From NCBI GenBank assembly GCA_021789895.1, contig JAJYIU010000001.1, positions 62,001-126,000 on the forward strand: 64,000 nt of DNA. The letters run 5' to 3'. A program made the position numbers and the translations under genes. Positions 11,048 to 17,502 of this stretch are shown in pieces (positions within the stretch are counted from its first letter, which is position 1; the number at the start of each line of letters is the position of its first letter). The notes under the pieces are model-generated. The model was not told the DNA's origin. It searched no databases and saw only the letters and a program-made list of their open reading frames with translations. Source of the stretch: Acidobacteriota bacterium. GTDB lineage: Bacteria; Acidobacteriota; Terriglobia; Terriglobales; SCQP01.

Positions 11048-11817
11048 ACAGCGGGCCGGCGGGGAAGCGGCGATTCGGGGGCCGGCCGGACCAACACCAG
11101 CAGCGAGACGCCCCAGACCGGATCGAAACGCGGCCAGCAGGCCGGACGCACCAGCAACTGATAGAGGCTGCGATTGACCCAGGCCGGCGGCAGGCGGTCT
11201 TCCATGCGCAGCCGCTCGGAGCGCGGCGGCCGCAGGCGGCGCAGGCCGCGAATCAAGGCGATGGCGGGCAGCGCGGCGAAGTTGAAGGCGCGGCAGAACA
11301 GCACTTCGCCGCCGGCCTGGCGCACGAGAGCCAGCAATTGCCGCCGGTGATAGCGCCGGTAATGGCGCAGGGCGACATCCCAATCGCTCCAGAGCCAACT
11401 GAGCGCCGGCACGGTCAGCGCCAGCACGCCGGCAGGATGCAAAATCCGCAGCAACTCGCGCAGGGCGGCGCGGTCGTCGGGCAGATGTTCGAGCACGTCC
11501 AGCGCGGTCACCACGCGGGCGCAGCCGGAAGCCAGCGGCAGGGCATCCACGCGCGCCTGCAATAATCCCAAGGCGCCGCGGGCGCGCGGGCGCGCCAGGC
11601 GCAGGCTTTCTTCATGATCGTCAATCCCCAGGACGCGGCAGCGCAGCGCCATTTCCTCCAGCCAGACGCCGGTGCCGGCGCCGGCATCCACCAGCAGGTC
11701 GCCGGGCGCCAGCGAGGCGTAGCGCTCCAGCCAATAGCGCACGATCGCTCGTTTGCCGGAATAAAACCAATGCTGCCGGTCAATCCGTTCCAGGCGCTCG
11801 TATTCGGCCGGGTTCAT
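11026..11817 (-). CDS. Class I SAM-dependent methyltransferase
   Basis: A 263-residue protein with a Rossmann methyltransferase core: motif I LLVDAGAGTGVWLEEM (about residues 41-56), an acidic residue after the second strand in RVLGIDDHEES, and VVTALDVLEHLPDDRAALREL, the usual post-motif II region. The N-terminal ERLERIDRQHWFYSGKR is typical of methyltransferases encoded beside dolichol-phosphate-mannose-synthase-like GT2 proteins. It overlaps the GT2 gene by the 4 bp ATGA, so the pair is translationally coupled. The substrate may be a lipid-linked sugar or envelope glycan, but the sequence does not show which. Its 3' end overlaps convergent glgM by 22 bp. Confidence 0.85.
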   Translation of the reverse strand: MNPAEYERLERIDRQHWFYSGKRAIVRYWLERYASLAPGDLLVDAGAGTGVWLEEMALRCRVLGIDDHEESLRLARPRARGALGLLQARVDALPLASGCARVVTALDVLEHLPDDRAALRELLRILHPAGVLALTVPALSWLWSDWDVALRHYRRYHRRQLLALVRQAGGEVLFCRAFNFAALPAIALIRGLRRLRPPRSERLRMEDRLPPAWVNRSLYQLLVRPACWPRFDPVWGVSLLVLVRPAPESPLPRRPAVQAFRPR

Positions 11818-12842
11818 AGCGGGTTCGCGGCCGAGCCGCCCCGCTCCGCTTCGGCCCTGTCCGGTTCGGCGCGGTGAAGCCGCCGGACGATGTAAAGCGG
11901 CCTGGCTTTCACTTCATCGTAGATACGGCCGATATATTCGCCAATCAGCCCCAGGCAGACCAGTTGCACGCCGCCGAGAAACAACACGGCAAAGATGGTG
12001 CTGGTGTAGCCCACAATCACCGGTTGATGGAACAAGCCGGCGCCGCGCAGGCGCTCGATCACCACCACGGCCGCGCCCAGCAGGGCGAGGCCGGCAATGA
12101 CCAGTCCGATCAGGATGCTCAGCCGCATCGGTTTGTAGCTGAAGCTGAAGACCGCATCGAAGCCATAGCGCAGCAGCCGCCAGAGGCTTTGCCGCGAGCG
12201 GCCGCGCTCGCGGCCGGCCCGGTCGTAGGCCACCGCCGCCGCCGGAAAGCCGATCCAGGCGCGCAAGCCCGGCAGGTAGCGGTTGACCTCGCCCAGCCGC
12301 CGCAGCTCTTGGGCCGGTTCCCGGCCCAAGAGGCAGAAAACGCCGCCGCGGTCGGGCAGGGGAAAATCCGAAAGATAGCCGAAGAGGCGATAAAAGGCCG
12401 CAGTCAGCCAGCGCCGCGGGCCGTGTTCGGCGCGGCTGCGGCGCTCCGCGACGACCACCTGGGCGCCTGCTTGCCAGGCGGCGACCAGCTCCGCAATCAG
12501 CTCGGGCGGGTCTTGCAGGTCGGCGTCCATCATCACCACCGCATCGCCCTGCGCCGTCGCCAGACCGGCGCTCAGCGCCGCCTGGTGCCCCCAATTTCGC
12601 GAAAGCTCGACGATCAGGATGCGGCCGTCGTGGCGTTGCATTGCGCGCAATTGCGCCAGGCTGGCATCGCGGCTGCCATCGTCCACAAAAATCAACTCGC
12701 ACGGCAGCCGCAACTGATCCAGCACTCTGCGCAGGCGGGCATAGAGCTGCGGCAGCAACTCGGCCTCGTTGAAGATCGGCAGCACGATGGAGAGTTGGGG
12801 CCCCGGCATGGTCACCGCCAATACAGAATTCGCTTCCGTCAT
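11814..12842 (-). CDS. GT2 family polyprenyl-phosphate glycosyltransferase (GtrB/ArnC-like)
   Basis: This enzyme moves a sugar from a nucleotide donor onto polyprenyl phosphate at the cytoplasmic membrane. The 342-residue protein has an N-terminal GT-A domain: LSIVLPIFNEAELLPQLY, LIFVDDGSRDASLAQL, the LSRNWGHQAALSAGL motif of this subgroup, and DXD-like MMDADLQDPPELI. Two C-terminal membrane helices follow (about 235-260 and 270-300) around YTSTIFAVLFLGGVQLVCLGLIGEYIGRIYDEVKARP, which is diagnostic of the GtrB/DPM-like family. Its product could supply the GT-C enzymes nearby. An internal ATG at residue 12 is an alternative start. It is coupled to the methyltransferase by a 4-bp overlap. Confidence 0.92.
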   Translation of the reverse strand: MTEANSVLAVTMPGPQLSIVLPIFNEAELLPQLYARLRRVLDQLRLPCELIFVDDGSRDASLAQLRAMQRHDGRILIVELSRNWGHQAALSAGLATAQGDAVVMMDADLQDPPELIAELVAAWQAGAQVVVAERRSRAEHGPRRWLTAAFYRLFGYLSDFPLPDRGGVFCLLGREPAQELRRLGEVNRYLPGLRAWIGFPAAAVAYDRAGRERGRSRQSLWRLLRYGFDAVFSFSYKPMRLSILIGLVIAGLALLGAAVVVIERLRGAGLFHQPVIVGYTSTIFAVLFLGGVQLVCLGLIGEYIGRIYDEVKARPLYIVRRLHRAEPDRAEAERGGSAANPL

Positions 12843-13235
12843 CTTAAAGCGTTAACGGCCGAGCCGGACAGTAATTCTGTCCGGGAACGGATGCTTACGC
12901 AGCGCGTGGGTGGCGGCTGTGCTCGCTGCCGGATGGATGCCGTAGATTTTTCTGGCCGCAGCGATCATCGCCCTGGCCAGCGCTCGCGCCGCGCCGGCCG
13001 CCGCCGGGAGCAGGCTGCAGGTTCCGCCTCCATGTCCTTCTGACCGACGCTGAATGGCTAATTGTCAAAACTTTCGGGGCCTTTTCCGCGCGTTGGTTAA
13101 GGCATGATAAAAGGATCCAACTGCTTGAATTCACGCCGCATAAAAGCTCGGCCCAGACAACAAAAACCGTTATCCGATTGCGTAGGCGGGGGGTTGACGC
13201 CGGCCGTTTCGGCTGGTTTAAATTAAGCCGACCTG
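12843..13235. other. 393-bp intergenic region, no gene seen
   Basis: No convincing protein or RNA gene is visible between the GT2 gene and the UbiA-like fragment. It was searched for the missing N-terminal half of the UbiA gene (the NDxxDxxxD prenyl-diphosphate motif) in all three plus-strand frames and none was found. The region carries the palindrome at 12864-12884 near the GT2 start and becomes AT-richer towards 13235 (GGTTTAAATTAAG), where a promoter for the dprE unit would be expected. Confidence 0.5.
12864..12884. repeat. Perfect palindrome upstream of GT2 gene
   Basis: CCGGACAG (12864-12871) and CTGTCCGG (12877-12884) are exact inverted copies separated by TAATT. It begins 22 bp upstream of the GT2 start. 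There is no T-run on either side, so it reads as a possible operator or leader hairpin rather than a terminator. Confidence 0.4.
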
Positions 13236-13544
13236 ATGCGTCTGAATAAGCTGTCGGCGGCGAGCTATACGGTGTTTTTAAAACGGCAGCCTTTGCTCGA
13301 TGTATTCACTCTGGCCGGGCTCTACATCATTCGCTTGCTGGCGATTTTGATTCCGGGCTTATTTGCGACCAGCACCGCGGTCGTCCGGCTCTATCGCTCC
13401 CCCCTGATTTTATTGGTTCTTTGTCCGGTGCTGTATTACTGGATTGCGCGCCTGTGGCTGATCACGTTCCGGCGCAAAATGCATTCGGATCCAGTTTTAT
13501 TGGGCCTGGTGTTGCTCATCGTCATGCTCGCAGGCCCAAAATAA
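13236..13544 (+). pseudogene. Truncated UbiA-family prenyltransferase fragment (DprE-pathway type)
   Basis: The 102-residue product matches two separate parts of the UbiA-family decaprenyl-phosphate phosphoribosyltransferase, the enzyme normally found with DprE1/DprE2. LSAASYTVFLKRQPLLDVFTLAGLYIIRLLAI resembles the middle of the family. TSTAVVRLYRSPLILLVLCPVLYYWIARLWLI followed by RKMHSDPV resembles its C-terminal helices. Full-length members have about 300 residues. The N-terminal Asp-rich catalytic motif is missing and a large central part appears deleted. The frame is still open, and its stop lies one base before the dprE1-like ATG. It is probably a remnant that keeps translational coupling; a non-enzymatic role cannot be excluded. 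The family match is by recognition, not alignment. Confidence 0.6.
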
Positions 13545-13545
13545 A

Positions 13546-14868
13546 ATGCCAGGCGGGGACTATCTCTCCTGGGGCCGATACCCCCGGGTTCGGCATCGGC
13601 AGGTTTACCGGCTAAGTTGGCAGGACCAGGCGGCGCCGCGGCTGGCGGCGGCGGCAGCGGAATCGCTGCTGCCCACGGGTTTGCAAAGAAGCTATGGCGA
13701 TAGCTGCCTGAATGCCGGGCGTGATTTGCTCTCCTGCCGGCGGCTGGACCGCATCCTGGCGGCCGATTTTGAGCAAGGCTGGCTGCGCTGCGAAGCCGGC
13801 ACGACGCTGGCGGAAATCCTGGCTGTCACGGTGCCACACAACTGGTTTCTGCCGGTCGTGCCGGGAACCCAACAGATCACCCTGGGGGGCGCGATTGCCA
13901 ACGACATCCATGGGAAAAACCATCATCGGGCCGGCAGTTTCGGGCGGCATGTGCGGCAATTCGGGCTCTGCCGCTCCGATGCGCCGGCCCTGGTCTGCAG
14001 CCCGGCGCAGAATGCGGAGTTGTATCGCGCCACCATCGGCGGATTGGGCCTGACCGGAATCATATTATGGGCGGAGATCGAGTTAAAGCCGATTCCCGGC
14101 CCCGGGATGGATGTAAATACGATGCCGTTCAATTCGCTGGAGCAATTTCTCGAATTGAACGCCCAGCAGGATCGGGATCACGAATATACCGTGGCTTGGT
14201 TCGACTGCCTGGCGCCGGCGGATGCTCGCGGAGTCTTATTTAGCGGCAATCATAGCCCGGCACCGGCCGGCCGGACCCGGGGCGAGGCCAAGCCGGCGGA
14301 ACGCCAATGGAAAATTCCCTTTCCGCTGCCGCAGTGGTGGTTGAATGCAGGCACGATTCGTTTGTTGAATGCGGCCTATCGCCTGCGCCAGCGGCGCCGT
14401 CCGCGCCAGGCTTGGTTGCCGTACGCGCCCTTCTTCTTCCCCCTGGATCAGGTGGTGAATTGGAACCTGGGCTACGGCCGCGCTGGATTTTTGCAATACC
14501 AATGCCGAATTCCCGAACGGCTGGAGGTCTGCCATGAATTGTTACGCACGATCGCGCGTTCGGGCCGGGGCTCGTTTTTGGCGGTATTGAAGAAATTCGG
14601 CGATCTCGCCAGTCCCGGGCTGCTTTCGTTTCCACAACCCGGTTTAACCCTGGCGCTGGATTTTCCCATGCGCGGGCAGGCGACCCTGGAACTGTTAGCG
14701 GCGCTGGATCGCATCGTGTTCCGCTACGGGGGCGGGCTCTACCCGGCCAAGGACGCCCGCATGCCGGCGGAGGCGTTCCAGCGCTCGTTTCCCGGCTGGC
14801 GGGAATTTCTGCCCTATTTGGATCCCAAGCTTTCCTCCTCGTTCTGGCGGCGGGTGACTGGAGCCTGA
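13546..14868 (+). CDS. dprE1: DprE1-like FAD-dependent decaprenylphosphoryl-ribose 2-oxidase
   Basis: DprE1 oxidises decaprenylphosphoryl-ribose at C2, the first half of the epimerisation to decaprenylphosphoryl-arabinose. The 440-residue protein has the FAD-binding PCMH fold: LLPTGLQRSYGDSCLNAG, PVVPGTQQITLGGAIANDIHGKNHH (His122, matching M. tuberculosis His132), SFGRHVRQF, and GGLGLTGIILWAEIELKPI. The substrate half has FFFPLDQVVNWN, GFLQYQCRIP, LKKFG, SFPQPGLTLALDFP and YPAKDARMP (Lys402, matching Lys418). By eye, Ala370 stands where the mycobacterial enzyme has Cys387, the target of covalent benzothiazinones, and Thr368 where it has Asn385. It is coupled to the UbiA-like fragment upstream and the DprE2-like gene downstream. 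Confidence 0.88.
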   Translation: MPGGDYLSWGRYPRVRHRQVYRLSWQDQAAPRLAAAAAESLLPTGLQRSYGDSCLNAGRDLLSCRRLDRILAADFEQGWLRCEAGTTLAEILAVTVPHNWFLPVVPGTQQITLGGAIANDIHGKNHHRAGSFGRHVRQFGLCRSDAPALVCSPAQNAELYRATIGGLGLTGIILWAEIELKPIPGPGMDVNTMPFNSLEQFLELNAQQDRDHEYTVAWFDCLAPADARGVLFSGNHSPAPAGRTRGEAKPAERQWKIPFPLPQWWLNAGTIRLLNAAYRLRQRRRPRQAWLPYAPFFFPLDQVVNWNLGYGRAGFLQYQCRIPERLEVCHELLRTIARSGRGSFLAVLKKFGDLASPGLLSFPQPGLTLALDFPMRGQATLELLAALDRIVFRYGGGLYPAKDARMPAEAFQRSFPGWREFLPYLDPKLSSSFWRRVTGA

Positions 14869-14870
14869 GC

Positions 14871-15614
14871 ATGCAAAAAATCGTCGTCCTGGGCGCATTG
14901 TCTGCGGTCGCACAGCAGGTGGAGCGCCAGATGGCGCAGCATCGGATGGAACTGCTCCTGGTGGGCCGCTCGATGCAGCGTTTGCAGATTCTGCGCCAGG
15001 ATTTGCTGCTGCGGGGCGCGCGCCAGGTCGAGGTGTTTGCCGCCGACCTGGCCCAATTGCAGCAGCATCCCTCCGTGCTGGCGTATGTCCGGGAAAAGAT
15101 GCCGGAAATGGATACTCTGCTGCTGGCCTATGGCAGCTTATTGGATACGGAAAAGGCGCAGCGCCAGGAAGCGATGGTGGTGCAACAAATATTCAACGAT
15201 TGCATCAGCGCCGCCGCCCTCCTGACCAGCTTTGCGGAAGATTTCGAGGCCCGGCGCCGGGGATGCATCGCCGCGATCACCTCGGTGGCCGGCGACCGCG
15301 GCCGCGCCTCCAATTATGTCTATGGAGCGGCGAAGGGCGGGCTGGCGATTTTTCTTTCCGGGTTGCGGGCGCGCCTCTATCCTTGCGGCGTTCGAGTCCT
15401 CACCATCAAACCGGGCCCGATCGACACCCCCATGACCGCCCATTTGCCGCAGCACGCGCGTTTTGCCCAACCCGAACTGGTGGCCCGGGATATTTTCAAA
15501 GCCTTGCAAAGGCGCAGACCGGACGTTTTATATACGCCATTTTATTGGGCGTGGATCATGCGACTGATTCGAGTGATGCCGGAATCGTGGTTCAAACGCC
15601 TGCCTGAAATCTGA
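14871..15614 (+). CDS. dprE2: DprE2-like short-chain dehydrogenase/reductase
   Basis: This is the probable partner of the DprE1-like enzyme, reducing the 2-keto intermediate with NAD(P)H to complete the ribose-to-arabinose epimerisation. The 247-residue SDR starts with a modified nucleotide-binding stretch (KIVVLGALSAVAQQVERQM, where the classic TGxxxGxG glycines are mostly replaced). It has AITSVAGDRGRASNYVYGAAKGGL with the catalytic Ser and the Y-x3-K pair, and VLTIKPGPIDTPMTAHL. The SVAGDRGRxSNxVYG pattern is typical of DprE2-like proteins. The ATG lies 2 bp after the dprE1 stop. The divergent glycine motif is worth noting, but it also occurs in this subfamily. Confidence 0.85.
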   Translation: MQKIVVLGALSAVAQQVERQMAQHRMELLLVGRSMQRLQILRQDLLLRGARQVEVFAADLAQLQQHPSVLAYVREKMPEMDTLLLAYGSLLDTEKAQRQEAMVVQQIFNDCISAAALLTSFAEDFEARRRGCIAAITSVAGDRGRASNYVYGAAKGGLAIFLSGLRARLYPCGVRVLTIKPGPIDTPMTAHLPQHARFAQPELVARDIFKALQRRRPDVLYTPFYWAWIMRLIRVMPESWFKRLPEI

Positions 15615-15858
15615 GGCCTGGCGCCCGGGAGGCAGGCCCGGAGGAAATTCGCGCCGAACCAGGTTCTCGGTTTCATTTGCCTGCCGGTGCAAATTACCCT
15701 TACCGTTCGCAGAGCGGATGCGAATGCAATCGCAGCGGCGCGCGTCCGCGAGCGGCGGATTGGGAGCTCGCCGCTGAGGAATGAGTATGCCGGGTTGGTG
15801 CTGGTAGGATGGGAAATCGCCCGCCTGGGGGAAAAGCCCGGCGAGGTTTGCCTGGACG

Positions 15859-17502
15859 ATGCAAACTGCTTCTACAACGGTCCGCGTCCGCTCCGGCAGG
15901 GGTTTTCGTACGATTCACTGGACCGGACTGATGCTGATTCTGGCCGGGATATTTAGCTTCGGCGCTTACCGCATTCTGACGTCCAATGCCTCACGGTTAA
16001 TGCTGCACCGCGATGTCATTTATCCCGAAAGCGCAGGTATCGAGCTGGCGCTCCGGGCGGCCCGGACCGGGCACATCTATCCTCATTTTCAGACGCCGCC
16101 CTTCACTCCCGCTATCTATGGTCCCGGCTACTACCTGGCGTTCGCCACGGTCGCGCGCGCATTGCATTTCGGCTTCTTTCGGCTGCTGGTGTTTGCCCGC
16201 TTCGGCTCGTTTCTGGCATTTTTGGGGCTACTGGCGCTGGTGTTCGCATTCAGCCGGCGGCAGGTGGGGTGGTACGGCGCCGCGCTGGCAGCCGTCGCGC
16301 TGGCTGCCGGCATAGATTTTTCCGGTTGGATCGCCTGCGCCCGTCCCGACCTGCTCGCCTTATTTTTCACCATCTTAGGTTTAGTGCTGGCCGCCTGGCC
16401 GCCCGCGCCCGGACGCGTCCGTCTGCTGGCCGCCGGGGCGGCCTGCGCCGCCGCCTGGCTGATCAAGCAATCGTTCGTCGCCGCCCCGCTGGCAGTGCTG
16501 CTCTGGCTGCTGTTGCGCCGCCGCCGCCGCGACGCCGGCATTTTTCTCGGCGCCTGTGCCGCGCCGGCCCTGCTGACGCTCGCCTGGTTAGGGCTGCATC
16601 AAGAGCCGTGGCTGACTGCCATGCTGCTGCTGCGCCATTCCGTAATGCAGCCGCGCGAAGGCTGGCAACTGTTTCTGACGGCTATAACTTCGCCCGCAAA
16701 CGGCCTGTCGTTCCTGCTCGGGTTGGCGGGTTTCGTCAGCGCGCGCCGCCGGCCGGAGTGGAGCCTGCCGCGCTGGTACTTTATCCTCGCCTGGACGATT
16801 CCCGTCTGGCCCATCATGCAAGCCGGGGCTTCCACGAATTACCTGTTTGAAGGCTGGACCGCCGGCGCGCTGCTGCTGCCCGCCGCCGTGGATCATCTCC
16901 AAGCGCATTGGACCGCGATCAGCCCCGCGTCGAAAACCCTGGCGTTGGGGTTGCTGCTTTTCTACGGCTGGCAATATCAACTGCCGGTGTATCACAAGTT
17001 AATTATCACCGTGCGCGGCTATGGCAACCTGGCGCCGCTGCGAAATCTGCGCGTATTTACCAATGACGATTACCTCAACGCGCACTCGCGCCAACCGGAG
17101 TTATTGGATCCGGATCTGGCGCATATACTCGCCCTGACCGGCCACTTTGACGAAACTCCCATCCTGGCGCGCCTGCAAGGCCAAGTTTATGACATGTTGT
17201 TGCTGGGGAATTGGGGCGGCCAATTACCTTCTTATCGCGGGATTCCGTACTATAGCCTGGCGGAAATTCGCGCCATTCGCCGCAATTACCGCAGCGCTTG
17301 CGTGGCTGACGAAATGACCGTCTGGATTCCCCACGGGCGCGCGCCGGCCCTCACCCGCCCGGAGTTCGGCCGGATGCTGGGCTCCGAATGCCTGCCGGCA
17401 CAGATCACACTCGGCGCCGGCGGGCGGATGCGGGTGAAGTTCTTACGGCTTCCGACCAACGCTACCGCTTCCGGTCAACTCCAGGGCAACCGCGCCAGGT
17501 AA
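15859..17502 (+). CDS. Polytopic GT-C-like membrane protein, putative glycosyltransferase
   Basis: A 547-residue protein with about ten hydrophobic helices (one at 23-42, then from about 110 to 380) and a C-terminal soluble domain of about 150 residues. The first outer loop carries acidic residues (HRDVIYPESAGIELALRAARTGHIYP), then IYGPGYYLAFATVARALHF, a pattern like that of GT-C glycosyltransferases that use polyprenyl-phosphate sugars. No family is assigned firmly. It follows the dprE pair by 244 bp, and GT-C arabinosyltransferases are the known users of the DprE product in mycobacteria; this link is inference. Its last 28 bp overlap the convergent gene at 17475. Confidence 0.65.
   Translation: MQTASTTVRVRSGRGFRTIHWTGLMLILAGIFSFGAYRILTSNASRLMLHRDVIYPESAGIELALRAARTGHIYPHFQTPPFTPAIYGPGYYLAFATVARALHFGFFRLLVFARFGSFLAFLGLLALVFAFSRRQVGWYGAALAAVALAAGIDFSGWIACARPDLLALFFTILGLVLAAWPPAPGRVRLLAAGAACAAAWLIKQSFVAAPLAVLLWLLLRRRRRDAGIFLGACAAPALLTLAWLGLHQEPWLTAMLLLRHSVMQPREGWQLFLTAITSPANGLSFLLGLAGFVSARRRPEWSLPRWYFILAWTIPVWPIMQAGASTNYLFEGWTAGALLLPAAVDHLQAHWTAISPASKTLALGLLLFYGWQYQLPVYHKLIITVRGYGNLAPLRNLRVFTNDDYLNAHSRQPELLDPDLAHILALTGHFDETPILARLQGQVYDMLLLGNWGGQLPSYRGIPYYSLAEIRAIRRNYRSACVADEMTVWIPHGRAPALTRPEFGRMLGSECLPAQITLGAGGRMRVKFLRLPTNATASGQLQGNRAR

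Follow-up and report, generated by a model that had tools for sequence, protein, structure and literature searches.

The 102-codon frame directly upstream of the dprE1-like gene in the window (the whole stretch of 64,000 nucleotides that was analysed) was recognized as a relic of a HAD-UbiA gene of the polyprenyl-phosphate phosphoribosyltransferase type. Relocation of dprE1 and dprE2 together with a part of the UbiA gene, followed by reciprocal loss, is in our judgement a likely account of this frame. This account is preferred because the one congener compared (G001; contig JAKASR010000014.1, Acidobacteria bacterium isolate YP1.bin64) carries the whole operon at the ndk locus and has an empty site at the place that corresponds to the window. 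The short gene is thus probably a left-over.

The relic occupies 13236..13544 on the + strand, its catalytic motifs are gone, and it holds the counterparts of aa 318-344, 411-463 and 475-489 of the 489-aa intact copy in the same genome. In BLASTP against that copy, relic aa 10-36 matched aa 318-344 (67%, E 1e-10) and relic aa 35-102 matched aa 411-489 (49%, with an 11-residue gap, E 9e-23), which is far above chance level and bears out the preliminary description of a frame fusing two distant UbiA parts. The two parts are present as described, but they are not explained by a single junction, as three losses were found (the 5′ end, 66 codons and 11 codons). The first removed the N-terminal 317 residues, including the HAD domain and the NDxxDxxxD motif (aa 254 in the intact copy); the second took out aa 345-410 (66 residues) and with them GDLNFLQ at 396, the second Asp-rich loop; and the third removed 11 residues close to the C terminus. 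Compared with the features of the UbiA family, the relic, which starts at the equivalent of about aa 318, has neither NDxxDxxxD nor the second Asp-rich loop, and of the membrane helices only three remain; the catalytic Asp motif was therefore correctly described as absent, and both Asp-rich motifs are in fact missing. The Pfam UbiA model gave no match on the short frame, and a sub-threshold Pfam match to TraG_N was dismissed as chance. The promoter scan gave nothing above shuffles; a TTGACG-17-TTTAAA pair from 13194, spotted by eye, was not taken as evidence. The relic retains the native C-terminal AGPK and stop at the dprE1 start, and its TAA (13542-13544) is followed, after a single base (A), by the dprE1 ATG at 13546, in agreement with the one-base spacing reported earlier. 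An intact homologue elsewhere, truncation, loss of the active site and accelerated change (see below) mark the frame as a probable pseudogene or gene relic.

The genome to which the window belongs (G000; 79 contigs, 95.5% complete) gave three Pfam UbiA matches. A genome search for a full-length UbiA, as had been proposed, found one intact 489-aa HAD-UbiA at G000:C75:12042-13505 (489 codons), between ndk and a ferritin-like gene. Both of its domains scored over the Pfam cut-off (HAD, aa 26-163; UbiA, aa 237-369), so that it is an N-terminal HAD fused to UbiA. Its NDLMDLEAD segment aligned with NDVRDVEAD of 8j8j, the M. tuberculosis DPPR synthase (E 1.2e-23), and the protein thereby combines the NDxxDxxxD motif with likeness to a solved DPPR synthase. 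The idea that the pathway is fed by another UbiA copy is accordingly supported by an intact HAD-UbiA standing at the locus where the congener has its whole operon. With a single dprE1 and this HAD-UbiA, the genome has one of each enzyme in two places, and as one intact UbiA is found at the old place, the DprE1/DprE2/UbiA pathway looks complete across two loci.

The dprE1-like gene (13546..14868, + strand) encodes an FAD oxidoreductase of 440 aa (Pfam FAD_binding_4), predicted to be a polyprenyl-phosphoribose 2′-oxidase. Its best PDB matches were the DprE1 proteins of M. smegmatis and M. tuberculosis (E 7e-66 to 4aut), and both the FAD-site segment DIHGKNHH (aa 120) and the C-terminal AKDxR segment (aa 401) aligned to 4aut. 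The window copy is single, as a search for a second dprE1 in the same genome found none. At 14650-14664 (aa 369-373, LALDF), the window DprE1 has Ala where M. smegmatis DprE1 (NVCVDF) has Cys, and this Cys is the known benzothiazinone target. The adjoining dprE2-like gene (14871..15614, + strand) encodes a predicted short-chain reductase of 247 aa (Pfam adh_short). The best PDB match of its product was decaprenylphosphoryl-2-keto-beta-D-erythro-pentose reductase (E 1e-25; next best 5e-12), and an SDR whose closest solved structure is DprE2 and whose gene adjoins dprE1 was regarded as DprE2. The window DprE2 and the DprE2 of G001 showed 58% identity. In the DprE1 tree, in which rows L042 and L047 were on the wrong strand and were ignored, the window DprE1 and the G001 DprE1 were sisters (SH-aLRT 100).

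In G001, the gene row at the ndk locus is sucC, sucD, ndk, HAD-UbiA, dprE1, dprE2, an FAD/Fe-S oxidoreductase gene and the ferritin-like gene (names of flanking genes at this locus were assigned by reading translations), with 6 nt from the HAD-UbiA end to dprE1. Contig C75 of G000 is collinear with this locus, except that the ferritin-like gene comes directly after HAD-UbiA, and a search of the gap between these two genes for traces of dprE1 or dprE2 returned nothing significant. The FAD/Fe-S oxidoreductase gene that follows dprE2 in G001 has a copy in G000 on another contig (C62:51512-54604, 76% identity), and the old locus therefore differs from that of the congener beyond dprE1 and dprE2.

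At the window locus, the left flank, outside the moved unit, is a GT2 glycosyltransferase gene (11814..12842, - strand; Pfam Glycos_transf_2), and the right flank is a gene for a GT-C (PMT_2-like) membrane glycosyltransferase (15859..17502, + strand; Pfam PMT_2 weak, below the cut-off). Their G001 orthologues adjoin each other on contig C12 (GT2, 352892-353860, 78% identical; GT-C, 354043-355575, 60% identical). As the window flanks are collinear with G001 on both sides and the GT2-GT-C gap is about 180 nt there versus 3 kb here, the window carries an insertion of about 3 kb. The inserted block (12867..15906, + strand; about 3 kb, absent from G001) consists of a spacer, the UbiA relic, dprE1 and dprE2. 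Its left edge is at about 12866, up to which the window resembles the empty site of G001, and its right edge lies somewhere in 15615-15907. For the 370 bp that separate the left edge from the relic, a search for a source sequence found only low-complexity GC matches. The preliminary description had asked whether relatives have an intact UbiA at the same place, with the window copy simply decayed, and this is true by half: in G001 an intact UbiA lies directly upstream of DprE1, but that operon has another chromosomal position, the site corresponding to the window being empty, and the window's UbiA copy would have decayed after its move. As a single congener was available, the polarity of the move rests on this one comparison and on the conserved adjacency of UbiA and dprE1 at 41 of 80 distant loci (see below).

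A copy of a dispersed intergenic repeat (12847..12884, + strand; GCGTTAACGGCCGAGC plus a CGGACAG stem-loop) lies precisely at the left border of the inserted block. In this repeat, a CGGAC...GTCCG stem-loop comes after the core GCGTTAACGGCCGAGT/C. Its 16-mer, with at most one mismatch, was found at 7 places in G000, at 169 in G001 and at none in G003, which represents another genus of the family; the reversed control gave 0-2 places. Copies were also located at L188 4365, 5892 and 9577. The palindrome at 12864-12884 taken as a whole is single-copy, and the dispersed repeat becomes visible only with its left part. Rfam gave no match in the repeat stretches scanned.

The ancestry of the relic was examined in a UbiA tree built from 93 columns, those left in the relic. 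The relic, the intact UbiA of the same genome and the G001 UbiA formed one clade (100/98), within which the relic paired with the intact copy of its own genome (99/75). The alternative pairing of the two intact UbiA genes cost 1.9 log units and was not rejected (AU p 0.46). The pairing of the relic with its own copy is thus not firm, and the duplication could be older than the divergence from G001. As dprE1 was absent from the other 12 family genomes compared, and the genus pair of DprE1 proteins fell outside the other acidobacterial DprE1 proteins in the tree, the genus may have acquired the set externally. This distribution suggests that the whole set was acquired by the genus from outside before the two congeners split. 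None of the papers searched linked DprE1 with Acidobacteria in a relevant way.

Among the best 80 DprE1 loci in the genome contigs searched, UbiA was directly upstream of dprE1 in 41 and not in 33, while the remaining 6 were cut by a contig end. None of the 41 UbiA-dprE1 loci had the short UbiA form; the shortest upstream UbiA genes among them not cut by a contig end encoded about 280 residues, without the HAD domain. Among relatives, 26 of the 29 DprE1 loci examined lacked any vestige of UbiA over the 1.5 kb preceding dprE1, and the three with UbiA within that distance were from G001 and two genomes of the same order. These counts indicate that UbiA and dprE1 commonly stand apart in this order and that their separation as a rule leaves nothing behind. 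By this comparison of gene neighbourhoods, the window relic would be such a separation caught at an intermediate stage.

The relic had 50 private substitutions over 80 aligned codons, distributed 19/11/20 over the codon positions, versus 3/3/15 in the intact UbiA of the same genome and 4/6/12 in the G001 UbiA (Fisher p 0.02 and 0.04 against the two intact genes). The near-even spread in the relic, compared with the intact genes, indicates that constraint was relaxed. In the tree, the relic branch was 0.89 long versus 0.032 for the intact copy, corresponding to about 28 times faster change. The replacements specific to the relic were nevertheless conservative (mean BLOSUM62 +0.5 versus -0.70 expected at random, p 0.0008), and hydropathy was preserved. 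A stop-free frame had a probability of 0.07-0.14 in neutral simulations, and the two internal deletions, of 66 and 11 codons, each preserve the frame, which chance would give in 1 of 9 cases. A codon model fitted to the whole relic branch preferred constraint over neutrality (2ΔlnL 15.3, p 9e-5); in this multi-start fit, branch lengths were at their bound and synonymous sites were saturated, so that the size of omega is not trustworthy. As estimated from the alignment, the relic branch as a whole is not one of plain neutral drift. The constraint signal would fit either a long phase as a gradually relaxing full gene with a recent cut-down, or a short peptide that is still constrained.

The second of these possibilities leads to a reading in which the short frame is under selection as a translational-coupling leader, with ribosomes stopping at its end and re-starting at the dprE1 ATG. 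We consider this possible but rather unlikely, and give the same weight to its corollary that coupling substitutes for a missing ribosome-binding site and forced the deletions to stay in frame. The two in-frame internal deletions, the lack of any stop and the preserved AGPK and stop at the dprE1 start are what such a leader would show, but the same pattern is expected from a long full-gene phase with recent loss of parts. The Shine-Dalgarno site of dprE1 is weak both here (-1.9 kcal/mol) and in G001 (-1.8), and that of dprE2 is strong (-5.6 and -6.1, respectively), values that are compatible with translational coupling. However, such weakness is not unusual: among 52 long ATG-started ORFs in the window, the median is -2.65 and the upper quartile -1.4, and the dprE1 site lies between the two. 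The start of the relic itself has no Shine-Dalgarno site (0.4 kcal/mol), the promoter scan at the relic gave nothing above shuffles, and other genomes of the same order have dprE1 without an upstream UbiA remnant. It is likewise doubtful that a catalytic membrane enzyme was whittled in frame to a 102-codon cistron that supplies the epimerase gene after it with ribosomes (or with a hydrophobic anchor), with the coupling outliving the enzyme. Should dprE1 translation prove to depend on the relic, nature would here offer a neat example of a gene worn down to a coupling leader. Retention of the frame as a three-helix membrane peptide, serving as an anchor or scaffold for DprE1 and DprE2, appears improbable. 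It has three hydrophobic stretches, AlphaFold placed helices at 8-53, 56-82 and 86-99, and replacements were conservative with hydropathy preserved; in addition, UbiA and DprE1 of C. glutamicum both appear in a two-hybrid interaction study (PMC4213368). The AlphaFold model, made from a single sequence, is nevertheless of low confidence (pLDDT 69, pTM 0.31), conservative replacement may stem from the full-gene period, change was about 28 times faster than in the intact copy, and the short form occurred in no other genome compared.

Two further readings concern the origin of the block rather than the role of the frame. A metagenome assembler might have fused pieces of a normal UbiA, as the genome is a multi-contig assembly, but the probability of such an artefact seems minimal. 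The relic differs from the sole other close UbiA of the assembly at 91 of 240 aligned bases and therefore was not copied from it; its codon positions show the pattern of relaxed constraint, and both flanks match the gene order of an independent genome. It is highly improbable that a foreign dprE1-dprE2 pair was gained horizontally together with its donor's UbiA tail. The lack of DprE1 in the 12 other family genomes and the outlying position of the genus pair would agree with a foreign source, but any acquisition from outside would precede the split of the two congeners. Since the window DprE1 is sister to the G001 DprE1 (100) and the relic groups with the UbiA genes of the genus itself (100/98), the data lend no support to a separate foreign origin of the block.

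Under relocation with reciprocal loss, either the whole HAD-UbiA gene or only its 3′ end would have been duplicated in this lineage along with dprE1 and dprE2, and the copy inserted between GT2 and GT-C. The old ndk-ferritin locus would have retained only the intact HAD-UbiA and lost dprE1-dprE2, and the new locus would have retained only dprE1-dprE2, its UbiA part collapsing to the 102-codon relic by three losses. DprE1 and DprE2 made from the new locus would act in trans, so that lipid-linked ribose is epimerised to arabinose. The relic has no catalytic role in this account, and any function left to it would be keeping ribosomes running up to the dprE1 start. The relic, the intact copy, the empty site, the operon of the congener and the tree can be read from the genome sequences, from which we infer that a duplication took place, in what order the losses followed and how flux passes through the pathway. 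It would follow that reciprocal loss can split the genes of a lipid-arabinose pathway over two loci in an uncultured genus of acidobacteria, with the caution that an enzyme should not be called missing from one operon alone.

The predicted system resembles several that are known. In ORF15 of Citrobacter youngae, a HAD-UbiA polyprenyl-phosphoribofuranose synthase, formation of polyprenyl-phosphate ribose-5-phosphate was demonstrated for the UbiA part, with the role of phosphoribose phosphatase assigned to the HAD part (PMC11127046); the C75 copy has the same domain order, HAD N-terminal and UbiA C-terminal. DprE1 and DprE2 homologues have been reported in three-component pentofuranose systems with Araf (PMC11127046) and are present here too, but the GT-C of the window did not arrive with the moved block, since its orthologue lies beside GT2 at the empty site of the congener. 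The mycobacterial DPA pathway (the UbiA DPPR synthase Rv3806c, DprE1 and DprE2) is paralleled by adjacent dprE1 and dprE2 homologues and by a UbiA homologue in the genome; it differs in that the intact UbiA here is HAD-fused and on another contig, while the copy beside dprE1 is a relic. The case is ordinary in kind, comprising a moved gene pair, a relic of the neighbour and an intact partner elsewhere. As in other operon relocations with reciprocal loss, the intact gene is at the old locus, the moved genes are at the new one with a carried fragment, and a relative has the empty site; nothing differs in principle, and the in-frame state of the fragment is the sole unusual point.
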